Shown here: piece by piece, positions 1-21,224 of the stretch | Layout: every line of letters begins with the position of its first letter | Numbering within the stretch: position 1 is the stretch's first letter | IMG/VR virus record: IMGVR_UViG_3300037427_000381 | Location: 1 to 22,585 of that record | DNA from: a virus | Strand: one strand, 5' to 3' | DNA: 22,585 nt | The notes under the pieces: generated by a model | Told to the model about the DNA's origin: nothing | The model's database searches: none | What the model saw: the letters and a program-made list of their open reading frames with translations, nothing else | Program-made: the position numbers and the translations under genes

Positions 1-971
1 TTGCCACCAGGTTTGTTGTTCTTCAACACTGTTCTCGGAACCGATTGATCCCTGCTCGGTTTCCATGTTGGTTGATAACCCAAGTCCTTGTAATCCCTCG
101 CTGTTGGTGTTGGGTACATCTTCTCTAGATATTCCATTGCATCTTGAAGTCTTGCTCCGTAAGTCATATGTGTTTTTTTCTTCTTCCTTAGAATAAAACC
201 GCCAGACTTTGTTCGCTCCACCCTCTCCGATTGAGGTGTATGTATGTTCGTTGCATTTGGTGTTGGATACATTTTCACTTCTTCTTGAACTGCTACTGTC
301 AACGGTGTCCCTCCTTGTTTGTACTTCTTCGTTCTCTCCGATGCTGAGTCTTGTGTTGGTGTTGGATACATCTTCACCACTTGATTGAGAGGTGGCTTCT
401 GTCCTCCTCCCGGATGTGGTTTCCGTGGTTTGTTGATCTCGTTCGAATCGAATGTTGTCGGTGTTGGAAACGATTGTTTCTTTGATCGAAGATGTTTCTC
501 CACTTGACCCATGTCTTGATAAATCTTCATAGTTTCTGGATCCACTTGTTCTCGTAGGTTTGATGGTTTCGTTCTGCCCTTTCTGTGACCCTCCATAATC
601 TTTTTCGTCCCTGCAGCGCTTCTCGGCGGCAAGTAATCCATTGTGTTGGGAGTGGCCCACAATCCAGACTCTATATCTTTGGTGCCAAGCACCGATGCCT
701 GAAGCTGGAATAAGGAAACATTGGACTTCGAAACCTTCACTTTCCAAGTTGTCTTGCACCTGTCTGAGTACCACGCCGTTTTGGAGGTTAATAAGTCCTT
801 GCACATTCTCCCCAATAACGAATTCGGGTTTGATTTCCCTAATGAGTCTAAGCATTTCTGGCCAGAGATAGCGGTTGTCGTTTGTTCCTTTTTGTTTTCC
901 TGCAACGCTGAAGGGTTGACAGGGAAATCCTCCAGTAATGACATCTGCTTCGTATTCTTTTCCTTTGACAT
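1..971 (-). CDS. Candidate overlapping gene inside the methyltransferase, +1 frame, runs off edge
   Basis: This is a second open frame on the same strand as the methyltransferase, shifted by +1. It starts at ATG 971-969, nine bases after GAGGAGG, and has no stop in 323 codons. The third frame does contain stops, for example a TAG soon after the start. The predicted protein shows TTTAISGQKC (31-40), a Trp/Lys-rich stretch (67-80), LFQL (87-90) and five aromatic-x-TP motifs: WATPNTMD (105-112), FPTPTTFD (168-175), YPTPTQDS (202-209), YPTPNATN (235-242) and YPTPTARD (286-293). It ends at the edge with KPGG. I recall this pattern, followed by KLNPxWVEWLMG, in phage and bacterial proteins annotated as methyltransferase-related or hypothetical; I could not verify that. 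No biochemical function is known to me. It may be a translated overlapping gene, or a shadow frame kept open by the composition of the main gene. Confidence 0.5.
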   Translation of the reverse strand, partial: MSKEKNTKQMSLLEDFPVNPSALQENKKEQTTTAISGQKCLDSLGKSNPNSLLGRMCKDLLTSKTAWYSDRCKTTWKVKVSKSNVSLFQLQASVLGTKDIESGLWATPNTMDYLPPRSAAGTKKIMEGHRKGRTKPSNLREQVDPETMKIYQDMGQVEKHLRSKKQSFPTPTTFDSNEINKPRKPHPGGGQKPPLNQVVKMYPTPTQDSASERTKKYKQGGTPLTVAVQEEVKMYPTPNATNIHTPQSERVERTKSGGFILRKKKKTHMTYGARLQDAMEYLEKMYPTPTARDYKDLGYQPTWKPSRDQSVPRTVLKNNKPGG

Positions 972-1143
972 TTTTTATATCCTCCTCGATTGGTATGTTA
1001 GGAAAGTTTTTTTGTAAAACTTTCTGACAATATTTGTCCATCTCAACAAATTTTACAGTTTCAAAAAATCCAGTAGAGTCTAAGCCTAAAGCAAATCCCC
1101 CTATGCCTGAAAATAAATCAAGAACTTTTAGTTTTCTTTCCAT
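1..1143 (-). CDS. DNA cytosine-C5 methyltransferase, C-terminus cut by window edge
   Basis: This enzyme transfers a methyl group from S-adenosylmethionine to carbon 5 of cytosine in DNA. In a phage it probably protects DNA from host restriction or marks it. The 381 visible residues contain motif I (FSGIGG, 11-16), motif IV with catalytic cysteine (GGFPCQPFS, 71-79, Cys75), motif VI (ENV, 112-114) and motif VIII (HQRYRVWIV, 154-162). Beyond residue 165 the protein becomes rich in Ser, Thr, Asn and Arg, where the target-recognition region is expected. It ends at the edge with QQTWWQ, which in relatives I recall precedes the motif IX/X segment; that part lies outside the window. The start codon overlaps the end of the DUF3310 gene by 26 bases and has no clear ribosome site, suggesting coupling. 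From residue 58 onward the DNA is also open in a second frame (1-971). The fold and activity are secure; target sequence is unknown. Confidence 0.93.
   Translation of the reverse strand, partial: MERKLKVLDLFSGIGGFALGLDSTGFFETVKFVEMDKYCQKVLQKNFPNIPIEEDIKNVKGKEYEADVITGGFPCQPFSVAGKQKGTNDNRYLWPEMLRLIREIKPEFVIGENVQGLINLQNGVVLRQVQDNLESEGFEVQCFLIPASGIGAWHQRYRVWIVGHSQHNGLLAAEKRCRDEKDYGGSQKGQNETIKPTRTSGSRNYEDLSRHGSSGETSSIKETIVSNTDNIRFERDQQTTETTSGRRTEATSQSSGEDVSNTNTRLSIGENEEVQTRRDTVDSSSSRRSENVSNTKCNEHTYTSIGEGGANKVWRFYSKEEEKNTYDLRSKTSRCNGISREDVPNTNSEGLQGLGLSTNMETEQGSIGSENSVEEQQTWWQ
102..474 (-). repeat. Four dispersed copies of a GTATCCAACACC-type motif
   Basis: Near-identical short elements lie at about 102-123, 256-275, 353-376 and 453-474. 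On the minus strand three read close to GATGTAtCCAACACCAA, and the fourth is a degenerate GTTTCCAACACCGACA. In the methyltransferase frame they encode VPNTN, VSNTK, VSNTN and VSNTD. In the +1 frame they encode YPTPT, YPTPN, YPTPT and FPTPT. Spacing is irregular (about 97-154 bases), so this is not an ordinary tandem array. It is better read as a recurring coding motif within the variable region. Confidence 0.7.
981..987 (-). promoter_or_regulatory. Strong ribosome binding site inside the methyltransferase gene
   Basis: On the minus strand this reads GAGGAGG and is followed by nine bases and an ATG at 971-969. It is the best Shine-Dalgarno match in this part of the window and stronger than anything before the methyltransferase's own start. 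In the methyltransferase frame the same bases encode Glu-Glu in an IEEDI stretch, so it could also be incidental. It decides the proposed start of the overlapping frame. Confidence 0.5.
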
Positions 1144-1393: not shown

Positions 1394-2846
1394 AAATTAT
1401 ATTTAATTCTTTTTTAGCTCTAGTAACCCCTACATAAAACAATCTATGTTCATCATCGGGATTATCTAAATATTTATAGTACGCTGCATTACTCAAATCA
1501 GTTAATAAAATTACGTTATCTCTTTCATTACCTTTTACCCCATGAATAGTTGATATTTTAATCCTAGGATCTTTTGATAAATCTTCTCCATTTTTTATTA
1601 GTTTCTGTATTTTTCTAATCTCATCATCTCCCAAATCATCAAAAGCAATGTACCATTCATCATCTGTTTTTAAACCATGTTTTTCTTTTAAAGTATCTAT
1701 GTCATAAAAATTCTCTTTTGACATATGTTTCATTAACTTTAAATCAACATTCTTACTCATCTTGTTGGTTATCTTTTTATAATCATTATAATGTATAGGA
1801 GTTCCTTCCTTTAATTTATTCCAATTTTCTATTAAGGAATATATGTTTTGAACTCTAGGTGTTGAGTTTCTACGTTGAAAAAAGAAACCATTTTGATCTA
1901 AGTAGTAGGCTATTTTTTCTAAAAATAAATTTGTTCTAGCTAATATTAACCATTCTCCTTTAGATAGATCTACCTTATCTATCTCCCAATGATAATTAAC
2001 TTTTCCTAAATCTTCTTTAGGTATCCAATTCTTTTCCACTCTATTCTTAACTTTTTTAATAATATTGTTTGCTACATTAAATATATTTTTGGGAACCCTA
2101 TAAGACTGCTGCAATATAACTTTTTCTCCCTCTAAATTTATAAAACTTTCAGCATCTGCACCATTCCATTTATAGATAGCTTGATCATCATCGCCTGCAA
2201 TAATAGATCGTTTAGAGTTCTTCTCTAATTTTTTAACGATATCCCATTGTATTAAACTTAAATCTTGTGCTTCATCTATAAATATAACTTCAAACTTTGG
2301 ACTCTCTCCTTTGTCTAAAAATTTTTCTAACATATCAATATAGTCAATTAATCCTTTTTGTTTTTTGTATTGATGTAGTTCTTTGTTAATTATATCCAAT
2401 TTATCATACGTAAGATTGTAGCTGTAACCATTTTGATTATAGAGATCCAATGGAGATATTCTTTTGTTTCTAGCTAAACTAATTAAGGATATGTATGGAT
2501 CTTTAGAGTGTAGTATACCTTCATGATCATGGTCATACCTAACACCTTCAAACTCTATCTGAAGATCTCTACCTAGATCTTTGTAATCTTTTTCTTGCAT
2601 TACGTTTTCTTTTTTTAAACCTAGTATGTTAAAACAAAATGAGTGTAGAGTTCTAAAGTAGGGTAAGTCTTTCTCAGTCAAATTAAACTTATCCATAGCT
2701 CTATTTTTACCTTCTTGTGCACCGTTTCTAGAAAAAGTAAAATATCCTATCTTACTTGGTTCAACTTTTTCTAAAATCTTCTCTAGTTCATTCATTAAAT
2801 AGTATGTCTTGCCTGTACCTGGTGGTCCGTAAATTATCTTTCTCAT
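1362..2846 (-). CDS. UvrD/Rep-like superfamily 1 DNA helicase
   Basis: An ATP-dependent DNA-unwinding enzyme of the UvrD/PcrA/Rep type, presumably used in phage replication or recombination. Visible motifs in order: Walker A GPPGTGKT (7-14), motif Ia around YFTFSRN (35-41), Walker B/motif II DEAQ (191-194), motif III GDDDQAIYKW (218-227), motif IV QSYRVP (247-252), a motif V-like TIHGVKGNE (433-441) and motif VI VGVTRAKK (472-479). At 494 residues it is shorter than cellular UvrD (about 720), consistent with compact phage versions that have reduced 1B/2B subdomains. The start overlaps the primase stop as TAATGA, with AAGGAT eight bases upstream, so it is probably translated with the primase. 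Confidence 0.93.
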   Translation of the reverse strand: MRKIIYGPPGTGKTYYLMNELEKILEKVEPSKIGYFTFSRNGAQEGKNRAMDKFNLTEKDLPYFRTLHSFCFNILGLKKENVMQEKDYKDLGRDLQIEFEGVRYDHDHEGILHSKDPYISLISLARNKRISPLDLYNQNGYSYNLTYDKLDIINKELHQYKKQKGLIDYIDMLEKFLDKGESPKFEVIFIDEAQDLSLIQWDIVKKLEKNSKRSIIAGDDDQAIYKWNGADAESFINLEGEKVILQQSYRVPKNIFNVANNIIKKVKNRVEKNWIPKEDLGKVNYHWEIDKVDLSKGEWLILARTNLFLEKIAYYLDQNGFFFQRRNSTPRVQNIYSLIENWNKLKEGTPIHYNDYKKITNKMSKNVDLKLMKHMSKENFYDIDTLKEKHGLKTDDEWYIAFDDLGDDEIRKIQKLIKNGEDLSKDPRIKISTIHGVKGNERDNVILLTDLSNAAYYKYLDNPDDEHRLFYVGVTRAKKELNIIYAKTERGYDI

Positions 2847-4351
2847 TAGTAGTTATCCTTGTTAAAAGTTTTTTGTTTATATGTTTGTATTTTTTTATCA
2901 AATCTAGCTACCACAAAAACAGAAAGCTTAGTCTTACCAACTCTTTTGGTAAAACAATGTAAGTAATCTTTTAACATTTGTGATGTTCTTTGATACTGCA
3001 CCTTCCAATGTCTACGAGTAAGATATTGATGAAAAAAATTGTCAAATACAAAGTAATGATATTCATCTTTTGTATATGTCCCACCGTTTTTAAGATCTTC
3101 AAAGTCATCCTTTTTGACTCTATTTAAACAGTAGTCTTCTAAGTAATTTTTTAATATGTCCTTAGTCCCTGTTCCTTCAGCAGGCTCCGTTATCTCAGCA
3201 CCTTCTAGAAGAATATTTGTCTTTTGTTTCCATTCATTTGTCTTAAGTGTTGGTGGATTAAATCTAAGCTGCTTGACACATTCTTCTTGAAACAAGACTT
3301 GATTAGTTAGATGTTTTGCTGAGTCTAGATATAGTCTATCTCCATCTACATTCATATAATAGTAAGGCTCTTCTAAATTAACAACTTGTAGATCAGTTAA
3401 GCTAGGAAACATTATCTCTTGACCAATACCAAACTTTCTAGTTTTACATAATTTTTTATCACACAAACTACACATTGGTTGATCATTACATTTATAGCCC
3501 CAATCTTTTTTATCATGTTGTTTAGTAATTATATTTACTTCAGTGTCAGATAATGGTTGTTCCATTGCACCTTCATTAAATATTACTAGCTTAGACTTCC
3601 AATTTTCAGGCCACTTAGATTTTGCATATACACCATAATGAAATAAGGCATTATTTCTACCTCCTTCACCCACTCTGTTTTGCATCATTAGTTCTATACA
3701 TGGTGGTCCATCCGAGTAAGGTGTTTCAGGTCTTTTTACTTTTAACTCTGATAATTGTTGTTCGGTAATTTTTGTTGTTTCATACAACTCAAAAAAGTTT
3801 AGAAGATTAACGGACTCAGCATTATTATTAAAGCAATATCTTACTGTATTATCACCATTAAAATATGGTAAATTTAAAAAATTTCCTGTATCATCTTTGG
3901 ATTTTAATTCTCTTTGTTTAGGAAAAACTTCTGATCCACCATAACCTAATACAGATCTAATTTCATTTAGTTTATCTTGCATCAAACCAGCTGATACATA
4001 ATCTTCTGTAAATATAAATACATGAGCACCACCTGACTTAGATCTAAATACTAACAGTGGTAAACTAAGTTCTTTTATTTTTTTAATTAATTTTGCGTGA
4101 TCAAATCCTGCATAAGAGTCTATATCTATACAACCCCATCTACATTTGTTATCATCATTGATTGGTATAACACCTAAACTCTGTGAGCCTTGTAAATGAT
4201 TTGACCAATGCTCATCGGTTATAATTTCTCTTTTAACAAAAGATTTACCTTTTATTTTAGATCCATTACCGTTTGATTCACCAACAATAGTGACACCATG
4301 GGCTCGATTTAATCCTTCAAATATTTCTATAAACTTTCTAATATTTTCCAT
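2846..4351 (-). CDS. Archaeo-eukaryotic-type DNA primase
   Basis: A primase-polymerase that would lay down primers for phage replication. The N-terminal half carries the hallmarks of the archaeo-eukaryotic primase fold, closest in my judgement to the family also found in TOTE conflict elements. These are a metal-binding CIDIDSY (74-80, Asp76 and Asp78), a basic SKSGGAH (104-110, His110), EVFPKQ (141-146) and LPYF (161-164). A GRNNALFHYG segment (231-240) resembles primase C-terminal domains. A likely zinc-binding cluster follows, with Cys288, Cys294, Cys297 and Cys302. The C-terminal 150 residues are unassigned. The gene lies directly before the SF1 helicase and overlaps it, suggesting a primase-helicase pair made in fixed ratio. 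No good ribosome site precedes the ATG; instead a hairpin ends about 10 bases upstream. Confidence 0.85.
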   Translation of the reverse strand: MENIRKFIEIFEGLNRAHGVTIVGESNGNGSKIKGKSFVKREIITDEHWSNHLQGSQSLGVIPINDDNKCRWGCIDIDSYAGFDHAKLIKKIKELSLPLLVFRSKSGGAHVFIFTEDYVSAGLMQDKLNEIRSVLGYGGSEVFPKQRELKSKDDTGNFLNLPYFNGDNTVRYCFNNNAESVNLLNFFELYETTKITEQQLSELKVKRPETPYSDGPPCIELMMQNRVGEGGRNNALFHYGVYAKSKWPENWKSKLVIFNEGAMEQPLSDTEVNIITKQHDKKDWGYKCNDQPMCSLCDKKLCKTRKFGIGQEIMFPSLTDLQVVNLEEPYYYMNVDGDRLYLDSAKHLTNQVLFQEECVKQLRFNPPTLKTNEWKQKTNILLEGAEITEPAEGTGTKDILKNYLEDYCLNRVKKDDFEDLKNGGTYTKDEYHYFVFDNFFHQYLTRRHWKVQYQRTSQMLKDYLHCFTKRVGKTKLSVFVVARFDKKIQTYKQKTFNKDNY

Positions 4352-8393: not shown

Positions 8394-8572
8394 TATCTTG
8401 CTACGTCTGTTAGTAAAGTTATTAGGACAGCTCCCATACCTCCAACTATCCAATATTCTAATCTTTTAATTCGTTCTTGCATTTCTTTTATTTGGTCAAA
8501 TGTTTGTTTCTGCATAATTCTACATAACTTTTCATGTGATTCTATTTTTTGTAATGCAGATTTTTTAACCAT
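8393..8572 (-). CDS. Small single-span membrane protein, candidate holin
   Basis: A 59-residue protein with a Lys/Glu-rich amphipathic N-terminal half (1-39, likely helix or coiled coil) and one membrane segment around residues 40-56 (WIVGGMGAVLITLL). It ends in a short Asp-Val-Ala-Arg tail. This layout is like XhlA-type haemolysin/holin-associated phage proteins. Both ends are TAATG junctions: its ATG overlaps the stop of the 1039-residue virion gene, with GAGGT a few bases upstream, and its stop overlaps the endolysin ATG. Position next to an endolysin lacking an export signal supports a pore-forming or accessory lysis role. No homology is certain. Confidence 0.75.
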   Translation of the reverse strand: MVKKSALQKIESHEKLCRIMQKQTFDQIKEMQERIKRLEYWIVGGMGAVLITLLTDVAR

Positions 8573-11500
8573 TATGACCTCATTGCTATTTCTTGTTCTG
8601 ACGGAGATAGTAAAGCTCTTTCCGTACTACTTAGATTTTTCATAATTCCTGTATTATTTGGTGCTTGAGCCAAGAGATTTGTATCAACAGCTTGTGGTGG
8701 AGGCACACTACCTTGAGGGATTACAGCTTGATTAAATCTATTATCTATTTCAGTATTTTGTGCCAATAGATTTTCAGCTTCATTTATATCTTTAGTATCT
8801 TGAGTTAATTGTTGTGTGTCTACAAAATCAATCATGTTAGGTGTGAATTGATCGTCTTCAAAAAATCTTTCATCAAATATATAATAACCAAATAATCTAG
8901 TAATAATTTGTTTTGCGGCTTTTGAATCTTTTTTTACAGTTTTTAATTTTAATAAATCTTCTAACCTCTTAGGATCTGTTATTATTTCTGCTAATTGTTT
9001 GTCAACATCTGATCTTACAATTTTCTTTAAAGCAGTAAATGTTCTACCAGCAACGGTAAATTGTCCTAGTCTTGCTCTAATAATATCATTTAATGCAGTT
9101 TCAGCTTTACCAATTGTTTTTTGTGCAGATTTTCTTGAAGTAATTTCAAGAGCATCTCGCATCATTTTTAAATCTGTTAAAAATTTAGGATTATCAGCAA
9201 ATGTTCTTGTTAAAACTTGATTATTATTTTTTAAATAATCTGCAAATTTATCAAACACAAAATTACCTCTATTGTCAGTTACTTTAAACAATAGATCATC
9301 TTTAGCTACAGTTTGAAAAGCATTTAATAAATCTTTGTCCTGTCTTAAAATAGTCATAACTTTATTTAAAGTTGTAGGAGATTTATTATTGTAAAGAAAA
9401 GCAAATATTTTATCAGGATCCATTGACTCTATTCTACCATTAGTGGTTGTACCTAATTGTTTCATTAACTTGTTTCTTTTTACCGCTGTTACTTCTACTT
9501 TTTTTGCAAGTTCACCAATTTTTTCAATTTGTTTATATCCATTTTTACCACCAAAAAATGTTTCCAAAGCATATTTATAATCATTTAAAAATTTCTGATG
9601 TGCTACCAAATTTATTTTTCCTGTATTTGTTGGGTCAACTATACCCTTATAAGCACCTAAAATTTGTTCTTTGTATGTTTGAATTAAATCAGGTCTTTTT
9701 TTAATTAATGTATAGACATCATCTATTCTTTGTATTTGACCATTACCTTTTTTAAAAGTTTGTTTGAAAACATCCTCATCTGCAATAACTAACCTACCGT
9801 TTTTAGTAGACATTAACTTAGAAATAACTCCTTTATAAAGATCTTTATTTTTAGCATATGATTTGTCTAATTTTAAAAATTCTCTATACCAAATATCATC
9901 TGCCCCTAAATCTTCTTTTAACTGATTTTTAACAGCACCTATTAATTTTGATAATGCTCCTTCTACAGGTGCTCCTTCTATTGGTATAAGACCTTTTGAA
10001 ATATCTCTATCAAATCTTCTTAAATCACTTAAAGTATTTTTTAATTTATTAATACTTATTGTTGTACCTTTTGGTGCATCAAAAAAAGTTTTAATGTTAG
10101 GGTATTTGTTAAATAAAGTATTTTTTTGTCTTTGATTTAATTCTTTGACTGCGGTCTTAATAATATCTGTGTTAACTTTCCTACCACCACCTGCTGCAAA
10201 TAAAGCTGTGTATTTATCTGTAAAAGATTGTTCAAAGTCATCATACAAACTATCTATTACATTTCTAATCTGTGTGCCTGCTTCTTTCGTACTTCCATCA
10301 GGTAATTTTATAACTGCATTTGTTAAATCAGTTTCAGCTTTTTCTAGAGCATTTGTTAAAATTTTTTGTTTAGGAGCTAATCTTTCAGCAATTTTTGTTC
10401 GAATCATTTTTCCTATTTCATCGGATAAAATATTGTCTTTACCTGATAAACCTTGAAAATTATATTCTTTAGCTATTAAATTCATATAAGTATCTAAAGC
10501 CTCAGCTTGTTCTTTGTTAAATGTATCGAAAATTCCTTTAACACCATATTTAGGATTTGTTTCATAAGCATTTTGCAAAGCAAGTAATTCAGGATCATCT
10601 CCTGCTTGGCCTAAAGAAAATCTTAATTTCTTTTTAGTTCCTAATTCAACTAATCTATCATTTATTTTTGTAACTAATTTATTAGCTGCCTCGGCATCAT
10701 CTATTCTACCACCAAATTCAGCAGCATTAATTTTACCAAATCTTCTTATGTCTTTAAACATTCTATATAACTTTGGAACCGTATAACCCGCTGTTGTTAA
10801 TAGCCCATTTAAAACCGCCATATCTTTACCTTCGTTTTCTAAATAATCTCTAAACCCTTTTTCAGTTTTATTAATACCATATAATTCATGACCTGCGGCT
10901 AATCTAAGTGTTTCAAGTGCTGCACTTGATGCTGCCGAAGTTATCACAGCTCCTGTAGGTCCTGTAGTTCCAGCTGCAAAAAGAGTTGCAGCAATTTCAG
11001 GAATTATAAAAGCACCATAAGTTCCAAATTTAGCTAAATCACCTTCATCTAATCCATAAGAGTTTAATAATTCATAGTTACCTGTATTGGGGTTTAAAAA
11101 TTCAAGTTCTTCTGTTTCTTCTCCCATTCTAATTGGTATATCTTCTCCAAAATATTTATTTAAGACTTCTTTAGCAGCTATTGCTTTATCAACATCGTCT
11201 CTAGCTAAAGCTTGTGCAAAACCAACTTCAGCAAGATTAACATCTGTTTCGGCATTTATACCCCTCATCTCCGCTATTTCTTTTATATTATATTCAACAT
11301 CAGGAACATTTAATGTTACTATGTTAAAATTATCATAATATTCTTCTTTATCAAAAGGTTTAGGAGAAAACACATTAACAAAATCTTTAAAACGAACTCT
11401 ACCAACAGTCTGTAATTCGTCATAGGCTTTATTAATAGTGTCATTATCATTGGAATCTAAATCATTAGTTGCAACTCTATAAGTATCTAAGTTTGCATAT

Positions 11501-11691
11501 TTACCTTCAGGATTAAAAGATTTGTAAAAAGAAAAATAATCGATGTCTGCTTTTGAAGATAGTTTTTGATATATAGATTTAGTTAACATTTCATCTGTAA
11601 TAGGTTTTCCTATTTCAGCAGATTTTTTTTCTAAAGCATCGTTATATTTTTGTCTGTATTCTTGAACATTATTAACTGAAAGTAATGACAT
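8572..11691 (-). CDS. Large virion protein, possible internal/ejection protein
   Basis: A 1039-residue protein, the largest in the window. It is mostly Lys/Asp/Asn-rich and predicted helical, with one strongly hydrophobic Ala/Gly-rich segment at about 222-266. It has a long middle region of repeated basic helices and a Gln/Asn/Pro-rich disordered C-terminus. It has no enzyme motif I can identify. In podovirus-like genomes the gene before the lysis cassette is often a long internal core or ejection protein that crosses the host envelope; the size, helicity and single hydrophobic patch fit that. The ribosome site AGGAG lies six bases before ATG. The stop forms TAATG with the holin candidate. 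Function is inferred from position and composition only. Confidence 0.72.
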   Translation of the reverse strand: MSLLSVNNVQEYRQKYNDALEKKSAEIGKPITDEMLTKSIYQKLSSKADIDYFSFYKSFNPEGKYANLDTYRVATNDLDSNDNDTINKAYDELQTVGRVRFKDFVNVFSPKPFDKEEYYDNFNIVTLNVPDVEYNIKEIAEMRGINAETDVNLAEVGFAQALARDDVDKAIAAKEVLNKYFGEDIPIRMGEETEELEFLNPNTGNYELLNSYGLDEGDLAKFGTYGAFIIPEIAATLFAAGTTGPTGAVITSAASSAALETLRLAAGHELYGINKTEKGFRDYLENEGKDMAVLNGLLTTAGYTVPKLYRMFKDIRRFGKINAAEFGGRIDDAEAANKLVTKINDRLVELGTKKKLRFSLGQAGDDPELLALQNAYETNPKYGVKGIFDTFNKEQAEALDTYMNLIAKEYNFQGLSGKDNILSDEIGKMIRTKIAERLAPKQKILTNALEKAETDLTNAVIKLPDGSTKEAGTQIRNVIDSLYDDFEQSFTDKYTALFAAGGGRKVNTDIIKTAVKELNQRQKNTLFNKYPNIKTFFDAPKGTTISINKLKNTLSDLRRFDRDISKGLIPIEGAPVEGALSKLIGAVKNQLKEDLGADDIWYREFLKLDKSYAKNKDLYKGVISKLMSTKNGRLVIADEDVFKQTFKKGNGQIQRIDDVYTLIKKRPDLIQTYKEQILGAYKGIVDPTNTGKINLVAHQKFLNDYKYALETFFGGKNGYKQIEKIGELAKKVEVTAVKRNKLMKQLGTTTNGRIESMDPDKIFAFLYNNKSPTTLNKVMTILRQDKDLLNAFQTVAKDDLLFKVTDNRGNFVFDKFADYLKNNNQVLTRTFADNPKFLTDLKMMRDALEITSRKSAQKTIGKAETALNDIIRARLGQFTVAGRTFTALKKIVRSDVDKQLAEIITDPKRLEDLLKLKTVKKDSKAAKQIITRLFGYYIFDERFFEDDQFTPNMIDFVDTQQLTQDTKDINEAENLLAQNTEIDNRFNQAVIPQGSVPPPQAVDTNLLAQAPNNTGIMKNLSSTERALLSPSEQEIAMRS

Positions 11692-11700
11692 AATGTGCTC

Positions 11701-13260
11701 CTAAAAACTTAAACTGTTTGGACTAATATCGTTATCAACCTCTAATCCTCTAAAGTATTTATTATTATTTACCAAAGCATTATATTTAACAGGTATATCT
11801 TCGTCAGCAACGTTGTAAGCCATAACGTAATTATCTAATGCTTCTGTAGTTGTAAATAGACCAACTCTTTTTAATCCTTCTAAGAAATTAAATTTATTTG
11901 AACTTTCACCTATTGATTGTAAAGCTAAATCAATATCCGTAATACTAAATCTACCACCAGGTTCTCTAGCTTTAGCTATAGCATATGCTAAATTTATAAC
12001 ATCTGCTTTTGCAGCAGTCGTTTCAGGAGAATTTAAAAATCTTGTTAATCTTGCGTTTATAGAACCGTCATTTTCTAATTGTAGTACACGATCTTCAATT
12101 CTTTTGTATCCTGTGTTAAATGTTTTAAGATCTGTTTTCTTATCTTTATTTATAAACTGATCTACAAATCCAGAAACTCCTGTAATAAATTGAACTGTAT
12201 CTCCCGCAGCTCCTGTAAATGCTCCTCCTTGAATATCTTTTTCTAGTCTTCTAATAATTTTTGCAACAGAGTTTGCTGCTAACATTTGTTGGTCAGCAAC
12301 TTTTCTATTAGCTGTATCTATCTTCATACTTTCTGCTTTTAACATCATATTTATATCACCTTCTACAGGTTTGTATAAATCAGGGTTTTCTAAGATTAAA
12401 CTTTCTTTTACAAATTTAGCGTTTTCACCAAATTCATTTGTATCTTTATTAAGCACATATGCTCTTACAGTTCTATCTTTAAGTGGTACAGGTACGTATC
12501 TTAATTCTTCCTTACCTTTATCATTAGTAAATGTAGAACCAATTATATCTGCTTGATTAACAAACACTGTGCCTTTAGTTTGATTGTCGTAAACTTTTAC
12601 TGGTTTAGTTTTATCTGCTTCAGGGATAGGTTGGTATAACATTTCACCGGGATTATCTTTTGAAAGCATGGTTTGGATATTTTTTTCAGGTTGAAATTCT
12701 ATGTTACCTGTGTCTACGTTTAAAACTTTTTTAGATGCATAAAATTTATTGTCTGTCATTTTAGCATCTTCTTCTTTTATTCTTTGATTGATGTCCATTT
12801 TAACACCAGCTAATTTTAAATCTCTTTCAAAAGATTTGTTTGCAGCTTGTTCAGAAAAGAATGCTTGAGCAGGTTTTTTAGCCGACTCAGCAGCAGTTGC
12901 AAAGATATTACCTCTTGGAGTTGCTGACGCTAAATTTAATCCAAAATTAATTAAAAATTGAGATAAGTCTGGTTTAGTTTTTCTATCTTTAAAAGCTTCT
13001 TGTAAAGCTTCACTGGGTAAAAATTTATCTTCTTTTTTACCTTGGAGCATAGTAGCAAGATCATTTAAATTAAATTGTGGGGTATCTTGTTTTATTTCTC
13101 TAGTTCCTAATTGTGGAAAAAAATCTGTCGGATATTGATTTAAGGGATTTACAGATCCTGCTTCATTGTACTGTTGTCTTGGTTTATCAAGACCTGACGT
13201 AATACCAGTTCCTGCAGAACCTCCCATTTTAAACATTGGTCTTTTTAAAGTTCTATTCAT
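11701..13260 (-). CDS. Virion-associated protein of unknown function
   Basis: A 519-residue soluble protein starting MNRTLKRPMFKMGGS; the basic PMFKMGG opening is one I associate with structural-module proteins of marine phages. A Pro/Gln-rich region (about 25-60) is followed by a hydrophobic stretch (LINFGLNLASATPRGNIFA, near 103-121) and helical segments. A later domain contains RFLNSPETTAAKADVINLAYAIA, predicted helical. No catalytic motif is visible. It lies between the Gly/Gln-repeat protein and the 1039-residue protein with gaps of 4 and 9 bases, so all are likely produced together late in infection. Likely a minor tail, internal or connector protein; the call rests on context. Confidence 0.68.
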   Translation of the reverse strand: MNRTLKRPMFKMGGSAGTGITSGLDKPRQQYNEAGSVNPLNQYPTDFFPQLGTREIKQDTPQFNLNDLATMLQGKKEDKFLPSEALQEAFKDRKTKPDLSQFLINFGLNLASATPRGNIFATAAESAKKPAQAFFSEQAANKSFERDLKLAGVKMDINQRIKEEDAKMTDNKFYASKKVLNVDTGNIEFQPEKNIQTMLSKDNPGEMLYQPIPEADKTKPVKVYDNQTKGTVFVNQADIIGSTFTNDKGKEELRYVPVPLKDRTVRAYVLNKDTNEFGENAKFVKESLILENPDLYKPVEGDINMMLKAESMKIDTANRKVADQQMLAANSVAKIIRRLEKDIQGGAFTGAAGDTVQFITGVSGFVDQFINKDKKTDLKTFNTGYKRIEDRVLQLENDGSINARLTRFLNSPETTAAKADVINLAYAIAKAREPGGRFSITDIDLALQSIGESSNKFNFLEGLKRVGLFTTTEALDNYVMAYNVADEDIPVKYNALVNNNKYFRGLEVDNDISPNSLSF

Positions 13261-19400: not shown

Positions 19401-20069
19401 CTATTTTACAAATGATGGTAGACCCAACATAGGTCTTCCGTCAAATCTGTTTTTATCAGCAAATGGGCCATTTACATGATTATAATGTAGAAATACTTGA
19501 CCGCAAATGTTCCCGTCAAAAGGCTCTCGCCAATGTTCAAGTTCACATCCACTATATACTAGCATATCTCCTACTTCAAGCAAGAGTTTTACACCCTTGT
19601 CGTTAGTAGGTTCATATTTTTGTACTCTATGTTGTCCTGTTTCTGGACCATATGTATATCCTGCATTTGGATTAGGGTTAATAAATATAGGCCATGGATC
19701 ACCACCTAAATTAATGGTTGTAGATATTTCACACGATGGTCTGTCTTTATGTCTATGTAATATGTCTCCTTGTTTATATAATCTTGCATAGGAATAAGTT
19801 GGAATTAAATTCAATTCTGTTTCTTTTTGCATTATTGGTAATACTTTAACAAGTAAAGTTTCCATTACAGGATCTGCATAATGTGAGTATGTATTTGGAA
19901 TTTGTTGATCTGTCCACGTTCCCAACATATCATTATCATGAGTAATGTTGTTTTCGTACATCCATTTGACTGCATCTCGTTTAAGCATAAAATAATTAAA
20001 CACAAAGTTAGCTAGCTCATAACTAAGTGCTTTTTTTATTATTTGATATTTTTTTTGATTAAAATCCAT
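19401..20069 (-). CDS. 2-oxoglutarate/Fe(II) oxygenase, HxD type
   Basis: A double-stranded beta-helix dioxygenase that would hydroxylate an unknown substrate using Fe(II), oxygen and 2-oxoglutarate. The 222-residue protein has an iron-binding HxD in HRHKDRPSCEIS (105-116; His107, Asp109). The distal histidine is in SGCELEHWREPF (173-184; His179), preceded by GDMLVY (167-172). An Asn/Gly/Pro-rich loop lies between (121-160). It overlaps the upstream oxygenase gene by 11 bases and lacks a good ribosome site. I cannot tell whether it modifies virion protein, host protein or a small molecule. Confidence 0.88.
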   Translation of the reverse strand: MDFNQKKYQIIKKALSYELANFVFNYFMLKRDAVKWMYENNITHDNDMLGTWTDQQIPNTYSHYADPVMETLLVKVLPIMQKETELNLIPTYSYARLYKQGDILHRHKDRPSCEISTTINLGGDPWPIFINPNPNAGYTYGPETGQHRVQKYEPTNDKGVKLLLEVGDMLVYSGCELEHWREPFDGNICGQVFLHYNHVNGPFADKNRFDGRPMLGLPSFVK

Positions 20070-20637
20070 CTTGTATAAAATTAAAACTTACCGATATTCT
20101 TATATCATTTGATTCATTAGGTTCAACACTATGCCATAGCCATGAAGGAAACATAATTATTCTACCAACTTTAGGTTCTATGTTTACTTCTCGCCATAAA
20201 TGTGAGGGAGGTTTACCTCCTTTTTTAGTGGGCATGTTAAGTTGAACTCCGGGTCTTGGATCATTAAAAGTTATTTTACCACAATTAGGTTGTGCTTTAA
20301 TATAATATACACCACTAAATAAACTATTAGGATGTATATGGGGTTTATTATATCCACCAGAATAATTTATGTTAGCCCACATGTTACCTAATTTTGGTTG
20401 TCTATCTAACCGTTCTTCTTCGTATATTTGATGTTGCATTTTAAATAATTCATCTACTAAAGGTTTAAACACGGGTATGTTAAACATGTTAGTTTGACTG
20501 TGCCAACCTTTAACATTTGTTTTTTTAACTCCTTTATCTTTTTTAGACCATTCAATAATTTCTTGCTCAAAAAGTTTATTATCTAGTTGAACATCTTCAG
20601 CATGTATAAGCGTTGGAAAGAATCCTTCTGTTATCAT
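20059..20637 (-). CDS. 2-oxoglutarate/Fe(II) oxygenase-like, HxH variant (TIGR02466-like)
   Basis: A 192-residue protein of the putative 2OG-oxygenase family I know as TIGR02466. The metal site reads KPHIHPNSLFSGVYYI (98-113), with His100 and His102 where classic enzymes have His-x-Asp. The distal part MFPSWLWHSVEP (162-173) supplies His169, and Arg180 in RISVSFNF is the likely 2-oxoglutarate anchor. Family members commonly have this HPNS-SGVYY pattern, so it is not a broken enzyme, though catalysis is less certain. Its ATG overlaps the previous gene's stop as ATGA, with GGAGGT 11 bases upstream. Substrate unknown. Confidence 0.85.
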   Translation of the reverse strand: MITEGFFPTLIHAEDVQLDNKLFEQEIIEWSKKDKGVKKTNVKGWHSQTNMFNIPVFKPLVDELFKMQHQIYEEERLDRQPKLGNMWANINYSGGYNKPHIHPNSLFSGVYYIKAQPNCGKITFNDPRPGVQLNMPTKKGGKPPSHLWREVNIEPKVGRIIMFPSWLWHSVEPNESNDIRISVSFNFIQDGF

Positions 20638-21224
20638 CTAAATGGTTTACCTCCAAACCAAACTACTAAAGATTGTCGAACACCACGAATTACTTTGTTA
20701 ACTCTGTGATTTAAAAATGATGCAAATATAATCGCATGACCTTGTTTAAGTTTTGCAAATTTACCTGGTGCCATTAATTCTAAATCACCGCCTTCAAATT
20801 CGGATGGATCATTTAACAAAAGAGTCATTGATATTTTTCTAACAGGTGGTTCATCTTCCATATTTATATTACAATCCATATGCCAATCATAGAAACCTCC
20901 TTCTGGATATTCTGTAAATTGTGCTTGTTCTGTAACTCTAATATCATTAAATCCAAAATGATTTTCATTTGTTCTTTGTATAAAAGCGTTTAAGTCTTGA
21001 TACATGTGAGACATTTCTTTAACAGGTATCCACGATATAGTAGTTACTCTTTTATTCGTATCACTTTTACCTTCTTTAAAAGAACCAATCTGTCCTGGTT
21101 GTGGTGGTTGTTTTCTTCCACACTCTATAATCTGTCTACATTGATCAGGTGTAAATAATGGTGTGGTTGTTTGAACTATCCAACTTTTCCATTTAGGTTC
21201 TGTTATTATTTTATTTTCGTACAT
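20634..21224 (-). CDS. Prolyl 4-hydroxylase/PKHD-type 2-oxoglutarate oxygenase
   Basis: A 196-residue dioxygenase close to the PKHD/prolyl-4-hydroxylase group. The sequence shows YDWHMDCN (112-119; His115 and Asp117 bind iron), MTLLLNDPSEFEGGDLEL (133-150), which is typical of this group, then FASFLNHRVNKVIRG (167-181; His173) and RQSLVVWFGG (183-192; Arg183 as likely 2-oxoglutarate ligand). All ligands are present, so it should be active. Members often hydroxylate proline in proteins; the phage target is unknown. A strong GAGGAG ribosome site and a TAATG junction link it to the upstream oxygenase. Confidence 0.9.
   Translation of the reverse strand: MYENKIITEPKWKSWIVQTTTPLFTPDQCRQIIECGRKQPPQPGQIGSFKEGKSDTNKRVTTISWIPVKEMSHMYQDLNAFIQRTNENHFGFNDIRVTEQAQFTEYPEGGFYDWHMDCNINMEDEPPVRKISMTLLLNDPSEFEGGDLELMAPGKFAKLKQGHAIIFASFLNHRVNKVIRGVRQSLVVWFGGKPFR

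Follow-up and report, generated by a model that had tools for sequence, protein, structure and literature searches.

Dual coding in a phage C5-cytosine methyltransferase gene, whose +1 frame encodes a modular protein and probably the second chain of a split enzyme

Does a single stretch of phage DNA encode two proteins in two frames of one strand and, if so, do both belong to one enzyme? The question is raised by the first 1143 bases of the window, that is, the entire 22,585-base virus record IMGVR_UViG_3300037427_000381. Here, a C5-cytosine DNA methyltransferase frame, termed the DCM frame, is open on the minus strand from ATG 1143 to base 1, the contig edge, for 381 stop-free codons; and a second, +1 frame is open on the same strand from ATG 971 to base 3, for 323 stop-free codons, with a GAGGAGG nine bases ahead of its start. 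Re-reading the sequence returned the same two intact frames as the initial annotation, together with the five aromatic-x-TP motifs (at +1 residues 105, 168, 202, 235 and 286) and the blocks TTTAISGQKC and YPTPTARD that it had picked out in the +1 protein.

The DCM product, hereafter alpha, has motifs I, IV (PCQ), VI (ENV) and VIII (QxRxR) in order, which is how we take the motifs of the window to be numbered, and the DCM chain of a relative, L007, has HhaI and HaeIII matches. In the +1 product, hereafter beta, the SG, W, WK and L positions of the N-terminal block are kept across phages and bacteria. Since the window is the entire virus record, the contig cannot be extended past base 1, and the missing tails were supplied by relatives: L007 continues TWWQ as IESDLCGVPNGISYELDKDRANRIKTLGNAIVPQ and PGGK as LNPTFVEFLMGFPMNWT, in keeping with the two conserved tails that had been expected for these frames. 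The features of the locus are collected in Table 1.

Table 1. Features of the two overlapping frames in the window.
Feature	Position	Strand	Basis or remark
DCM frame: alpha chain, C5-cytosine DNA methyltransferase	1..1143	-	PF00145, E=5.4e-53
Layout of alpha		-	Motifs I-VIII, then low-constraint linker; contig edge cuts before motif X
+1 frame: beta chain	3..971	-	phrog_1008, E=3.9e-22
3' end of beta		-	Cut before motif IX-like block
Shine-Dalgarno GAGGAGG for +1 ATG 971	981..987	-	Sequence
DCM motif I region, DLFSGIGGF	1093..1119	-	Upstream of overlap
DCM motif IV region, GGFPCQPFS (PCQ catalytic motif)	907..933	-	Within overlap
DCM motif VI region, IGENVQG	796..816	-	Within overlap
DCM motif VIII region, QRYRVWIVG	655..681	-	Within overlap
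+1 conserved N-terminal block, ISGQKCLDSL ... TTWKVKVSKSNVSLFQLQASV	690..869	-	Conserved positions
+1 cassette A (WATPNTMDYLPPRS...)	471..659	-	Cassette classing
+1 cassette M (FPTPTTFDSNEINK...)	369..470	-	Cassette classing
+1 cassette E (YPTPTQDSASERTK...)	270..368	-	Cassette classing
+1 cassette Q (YPTPNATNIHTPQS...)	117..269	-	Cassette classing
+1 cassette K (YPTPTARDYKD...)	3..116	-	Ends NNKPGG, start of motif IX-like tail
DCM TWWQ, start of motif X tail	1..12	-	Full tail in relatives

Spread and annotation of the overlapping frames

A viral scan with the +1 protein retrieved 61 IMG/VR loci which, together with five phage records, make up 66 phage and virus loci, and the DCM and +1 frames overlap with an identical offset, namely +1, in all of them. 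A bacterial scan gave 292 relatives among 315 pattern matches, and the best 80 of the 292 were used; the titles of these 80 include Bacillota, Pseudomonadota, Bacteroidota, Actinomycetota, Spirochaetota, Acidobacteriota, Nitrospirota, Planctomycetota, Verrucomicrobiota, Elusimicrobiota and others, the phylum names being partly read from record titles, many of which are those of metagenome bins. Over IMG/VR, named phages, plasmids and bacterial contigs, the +1-like ORF overlaps a DCM ORF in 154 of 155 loci, always at +1, and the exception, L067, has just 40 DCM codons left at its contig end. Because nearly all of these loci were found by the +1 protein, the counts show that beta implies alpha, and not the converse. 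The +1 frame is open in the homologues, with one in-frame stop, in L045, near the edge of its contig. In the phylum to which L077 belongs, 4 of the 299 sampled genomes, the seed genome included, carry the dual-coded locus, which is therefore a patchy accessory gene; loci L167-L170, retrieved in the same sampling, did not enter the comparisons. One uncultured Roseovarius chromosome holds five dual-coded copies (L114, L116, L118, L119 and L120) with equal match scores and coordinates.

As the initial annotation had stated, +1-like proteins are annotated in phages, where they are catalogued as 'DNA methyltransferase' or as hypothetical. PHROG families 1008, 26627, 31772 and 27243 contain the +1 protein under one or other of these names, and GenBank holds overlapping annotations for phages Tadhana (54/55) and Lily (62/63, 'g62 internal gene'). 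These entries are annotations only, and those examined state neither a two-frame enzyme nor a motif split or cassettes. Among the fetched records, beta is unannotated in several (e.g. Xenia and Aubs) and hypothetical in others (Lily), and the +1 chain of phage record KT997847 bears the annotation 'putative cytosine-specific methyltransferase'. In this last record (L002:2291-2431 and 2400-3222), the N-terminus of alpha (gene 25) lies in another frame than the unannotated remainder of alpha, the +1 chain is gene 26, and the alpha frame appears interrupted. Mycobacteriophage Aubs gp70 (L165:1501-2259) is likewise dual-coded, its 223-codon +1 run with NPVWIEWLMGFPPNWTD being unannotated. If the two chains form one enzyme, annotation of one gene per locus loses half of it.

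Both frames are coding and under selection

The openness of the two frames was compared with chance by keeping one protein fixed and varying its codons. First, when the DCM protein was fixed and its codons followed the usage of the 16 other main genes in the window, the expectation is 18.0 +1 stops, with a minimum of 9 over 5000 draws, and none is observed, in line with the dozen or more chance stops that the initial annotation had claimed. Second, shuffling the DCM gene's own synonymous codons leads to an expectation of 7.5 +1 stops (minimum 2; stop-free in 0/5000), and the first 108 codons of the overlap (DCM 58-165) are stop-free in 164/5000 shuffles and in 0/5000 usage draws. Third, in the reverse test, with the +1 protein fixed, 31.0 DCM-frame stops are expected (12.7 by shuffling), and by both procedures the DCM frame is stop-free in 0/5000. 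In the window's 16 other genes, off-frame runs on the same strand stay free of stops for 84 codons at most. Ordinary single-chain methyltransferases can have +1 runs of up to 174 codons, as in L158, whose gene has 22 +1 stops.

Substitutions were then compared in an IMG/VR set from which sequences at least 97% identical had been removed, leaving 40 sequences and 18 disjoint pairs. Differences at DCM codon positions 1/2/3 are.058/.014/.201 upstream of the overlap,.055/.022/.081 in the overlap over motifs IV-VIII,.242/.124/.125 in the cassette part, and.065/.038/.143 in region D, the tail, which lies partly past the +1 stop. The third-position rate is lower inside the overlap in 15 of the 18 pairs, and its fall from.201 to.081 shows that DCM third-position freedom is reduced there. 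In the cassettes, the rates identify the +1 wobble sites as the free ones: these are the most variable position in 16 of 17 IMG/VR pairs, one of the 18 being omitted from this count for too few differences, and, outside IMG/VR, in 22 of 22 distinct disjoint pairs (.292/.260/.523 by +1 position). The DCM dNN/dSN ratio is.07 upstream,.18 over motifs IV-VIII and.88, that is, close to neutral, in the cassettes. The +1 dNN/dNS ratio is.32-.34 inside the overlap versus.49 in a non-overlapping upstream control, a value not far from it, so that this ratio is weak evidence alone. Over cassette A, the window and bacterial locus L113 are identical at 30 of 44 residues in the +1 frame versus 13 of 44 in the DCM frame. 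The initial annotation had regarded the DCM frame as the constrained one; this is reversed over the two thirds of the overlap distal to its start (about window 1-660), where the +1 frame is constrained and the DCM frame close to neutral.

In six loci (L007, L009, L016, L018, L025 and L027) and their near-copies, the +1 gene outruns the DCM stop. The extension is under purifying selection, with a pN/pS of.05-.16 among those loci and of.42-.56 versus the distant L054; the +1 frame is thus selected where it stands alone. The substitution patterns in the overlap, for their part, are not explained by the DCM frame. As a separate observation, this C-terminal extension (TTIDHWLRSDHCFAYP..; L007:2441-2815, also in L009, L016-L018, L025, L027 and L054) weakly matches four Staphylococcus phage records and a Bacillus phage record; the latter and three of the former are annotated as DNA methyltransferase, the fourth Staphylococcus record being unannotated.

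The +1 start is conserved as well. A Shine-Dalgarno-like site (GAGGAGG, GAAGGAG, AAGGAG or similar) is kept ahead of the first +1 start in 60 of the 66 phage and virus loci, and the start codon is ATG in 62. The site corresponds to DCM residues I-E-E-D when it reads GAGGAGG and to I-E-G-D when it reads GAAGGAG, whereas in L015 and L055-L057 the +1 start has an AAGGAG at a different place; GAG makes up 17% of the glutamate codons of the window's other genes. The loci without a site are L002, L005, L006, L045, L051 and L065; two of them, L045 and L051, start at a contig edge.

Could the +1 frame nonetheless be a shadow that is never expressed and owes its openness to codon usage, composition or a recent duplication of repeats? 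A near-repeat around ATGTATCCAACACC at cassette boundaries would fit such an origin, as would the ordinary enzymes with +1 runs above 100 codons. However, stop-free frames in none of the simulations, purifying selection on the extension outside the DCM gene, a +1 wobble base that varies more than the other positions in 38 of 39 pairs, the conservation of the Shine-Dalgarno site and the excess of +1 identity over cassette A leave a shadow with hardly any likelihood. Its simplest version, an ORF kept open by composition, was rejected on the simulations, the selection on the extension and the wobble pairs. Both frames are conserved and selected over the same DNA, and openness, start conservation and substitution tests together confirm a true overlapping (dual-coding) gene pair, as first proposed for this locus. 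In prokaryotes, the long overlapping genes described as fully established are few (PMC9927249). Here, dual coding is testable over 154 loci, and each frame bears its selective load in a different segment.

Division of motifs and cassettes between the two chains

The motifs were counted in 138 complete loci, sixteen loci cut by contig ends being excluded. By pattern, an LMG[FY]P block occurs solely in the +1 frame and motif X solely in the DCM frame in 116 of the 138. In another 17 the block is solely in the +1 frame and motif X was missed by the pattern; by eye, it lies in the DCM frame under another spelling (e.g. LKGCGNAVVP) in 15 of these, in the +1 chain in L078, and in neither frame in L110. 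Motif X also lies in the +1 chain in L075 and L132, and the DCM frame contains the LMG block in three complete loci, L065, L135 and L151. The IX-like pattern is absent from the DCM frame in 135 of the 138 complete loci, so that these are not of the single-chain form. Typically, the +1 chain of complete relatives ends G[KQ]LNPxxVExLMG[FY]PxxWT and their alpha ends in motif X (RIKTLGNAIVPQ in L007).

Is the +1 block a motif IX? An in-frame IX block, RKITPREAARLQGFPEEF for example, occurs in seven ordinary single-chain phage enzymes, and by eye six of these have a recognisable motif X after it. A profile built from these seven blocks has its best site on LMGFP in 97 of 138 +1 proteins versus 1 of 135 DCM C-terminal parts, and it exceeds the 99th percentile of shuffles in just 16 of the former and 2 of the latter, so by sequence the assignment to motif IX is weak. 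More help comes from natural bridges, namely Graduation, Kyee, L078 and L132. First, in phage Graduation gp47 a single frame holds all, with EWLMGLPRGW just before LLGNGVVPQQ; its structure model aligns with M.HhaI over 222 residues (HhaI 12-321; Z 22.2, rmsd 3.8), with a pLDDT of 78.5 that falls to a low confidence of about 54-63 around the IX helix. Second, in L078, L132 and mycobacteriophage Kyee (gp79/gp78), alpha stops after motif VIII, and the +1 ORF contains cassettes, IX-like block and motif X. The adjacent Kyee genes (L075:1501-2596), both named 'DNA methylase', look like halves of one C5 enzyme with [YFL]PTP cassettes. The +1 family profile had no match among PDB sequences, nor had any of the +1 proteins submitted a credible match in Pfam, NCBIfam or PADLOC, and the model of beta alone is poor (pLDDT 58.5, pTM 0.25), with little order in the cassettes.

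We propose, with a probability of roughly 0.8, that the locus encodes a naturally split C5-cytosine methyltransferase, whose alpha and beta chains come from the same DNA in two frames and whose cassettes set the targets. Alpha would provide AdoMet binding and catalysis through motifs I-VIII, followed by a low-constraint linker and motif X. Beta would have a separate start, a +1-frame ATG with its Shine-Dalgarno site lying 172 bases into alpha, and would consist, in this order, of the conserved N-terminal block, tandem [YFW]xTP cassettes and the terminal motif IX-like block. The two chains would assemble into one enzyme, in which beta replaces the small, DNA-recognising domain and exchangeable cassettes decide the methylated sites, and this enzyme would shield the phage genome from host restriction.

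Accepting dual coding does not by itself make beta a subunit, for the +1 product might be a separate phage protein, e.g. a regulator or an anti-defence factor, acting outside the methyltransferase. Strict overlap could by itself reflect overprinting, the +1 family is without a PDB relative and its motif IX score is weak, and some +1 members have a further C-terminal domain. Yet this domain weakly matches five phage records of which four are annotated as DNA methyltransferase and one is unannotated, variants preserve the order of the parts within a single chain or a tandem pair, alpha is without an LMGFP block where ordinary enzymes carry motif IX, and M.EcoHK31I provides a precedent, all of which make a separate protein unlikely. 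Thus, of the idea that one DNA segment gives rise to two related protein families, the dual coding stands, and the two products, rather than being unrelated proteins, most likely belong to one enzyme as its subunits.

A further alternative does away with the separate start: programmed frameshifting from the DCM frame would yield the +1 protein as part of a fused catalytic-recognition chain. The order of motifs I-VIII, cassettes and IX would suit one chain, of which Graduation gp47 is a natural single-frame version. We consider frameshifting very improbable, however, given that a start codon and Shine-Dalgarno-like site are well placed in 60 of 66 loci, with a form and place that vary with the sequence, and that a fusion would lose motif X, which 116 of 138 complete loci have in the DCM frame.

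An orphan enzyme of a phage is likely to act against restriction. Among the 14 other window proteins examined from this partial record, none was recognised as the product of a restriction gene; their matches include helicases, primase, endolysin, virion proteins and auxiliary genes. Elsewhere in the window, a phage gene (2846-4351) matches the archaeo-eukaryotic primase domain of TOTE conflict systems (PF22548, 1.2e-15); another (19401-20069) matches PHROG families named ferrochelatase (8.2e-48) and has near it a match to a 2OG-Fe(II) oxygenase family (20634-21224); and two large ORFs of 1039 and 519 aa (8572-11691 and 11701-13260) have no PHROG match at 1e-3.

From the N-terminal block to the IX-like block, the body of the +1 protein is a row of [YFW]xTP modules of about 30-60 aa. 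In 61 proteins, namely those of the window and 60 IMG/VR loci, there are 246 cassettes, 1 to 7 per protein when four contig-cut proteins are left apart, which a simple identity rule over the first 26 residues sorts into 34 classes, nine of them singletons. Their order is A-M-E-Q-K in the window, and A-F-E-B-K and A-N-E-I-K in near relatives. Apart from a single exact 150-base cassette by which they differ, L011 and L009 agree at 981 of 1020 aligned bases, and the above-mentioned near-repeat, which is common to cassette boundaries, is a possible crossover site. In 94 non-IMG/VR loci (E 0.01), 12 matches were found for window cassette A, 3 for E, 16 for K, the best of which are mostly short, 1 for Q and none for M. 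Cassette A shares 65-67% identity with its counterparts in bacterial loci L113, L137 and L139, as against 35-43% for the N-terminal blocks; for cassette Q and KT997847 the corresponding values are 82% and 54%; and the gap is smaller in L130 (58% versus 52%). The cassettes are reshuffled from phage to phage, and some of them also occur in bacteria.

Since the cassettes sit between motif VIII and the IX-like block, the place of the recognition region in C5 enzymes, they may well be target-recognition modules. They could instead be flexible repeats that keep the frame open or offer an assembly surface, within the same split, dual-coded enzyme, specificity coming from the N-terminal block of beta. 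Such a role would sit easily with the varying cassette number and with the little order that they show in the beta model; purifying selection on the cassettes in the +1 frame, their exchange as whole classes and their very location argue against it, and we find it doubtful, although it overlaps the split enzyme with target-setting cassettes and the two are not mutually exclusive. Beyond that enzyme, it is tempting to speculate, at somewhat less than even odds, on a widespread, dual-coded multispecific methyltransferase whose exchangeable +1 recognition cassettes circulate among phages and among bacteria from some dozen phyla, as named in record titles, each cassette moving as a unit that leaves both frames open. 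In such a library, the sequence of cassettes would encode which sites are methylated. Provided that the cassettes do act as recognition modules, methylation sites in phages and prophages could be predicted from their order, and they would offer a stock of interchangeable parts for setting specificity.

Comparison with known methyltransferases

The multispecific C5-methyltransferases of Bacillus subtilis phages (SPR, phi3T and rho11 type) have tandem, independent recognition domains of about 40 aa in their variable region, in the same frame as the catalytic core. Set side by side by description, the likeness would consist in tandem modules within a phage enzyme; those of the +1 chain, which are candidate recognition modules, are tandem and exchangeable. 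The difference is that the modules here are in another frame and on another chain.

Lee, Kam and Shaw are said to have reported in 1995 that the small chain of M.EcoHK31I (YGGCCR) is read in another frame inside the large one. In its description, on which our comparison is based, this enzyme consists of two polypeptides, the larger with motifs I-VIII and X as well as the predicted recognition domain, and the smaller with just motif IX (PMC3404938), and it is elsewhere called naturally split (PMC3439449). The same layout, with a IX-like block on the small chain and I-VIII and X on the large one, is found by pattern in 116 of 138 complete relatives of the window. However, the predicted recognition domain of M.EcoHK31I is in its larger chain, whereas here the constrained variable region is in the small (+1) chain; and cassette arrays, C-terminal extensions and a spread over phages and many phyla are not described in the literature searched. 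M.AquI is split in the variable region, its small chain comprising the distal variable region and motif IX (PMC3404938). It resembles our loci in both respects, but its small chain also has motif X, which window-type loci keep in the alpha frame, and only L075 (Kyee), L078 and L132, with the IX-like block and X on the small chain, look AquI-like.

Apart from M.EcoHK31I as a split enzyme, the literature searched, which included few subscription papers, contains no description of two-frame C5-methyltransferases. Paenibacillus larvae phage genomes carry the overlap; in one paper on such phages, gp62 and gp63 are tabulated as DNA-cytosine methyltransferases, and from a second the word methyltransferase is absent. 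What is new here, when compared with these systems, is the breadth of the split arrangement, together with a beta chain whose body is an array of [YFW]xTP cassettes.
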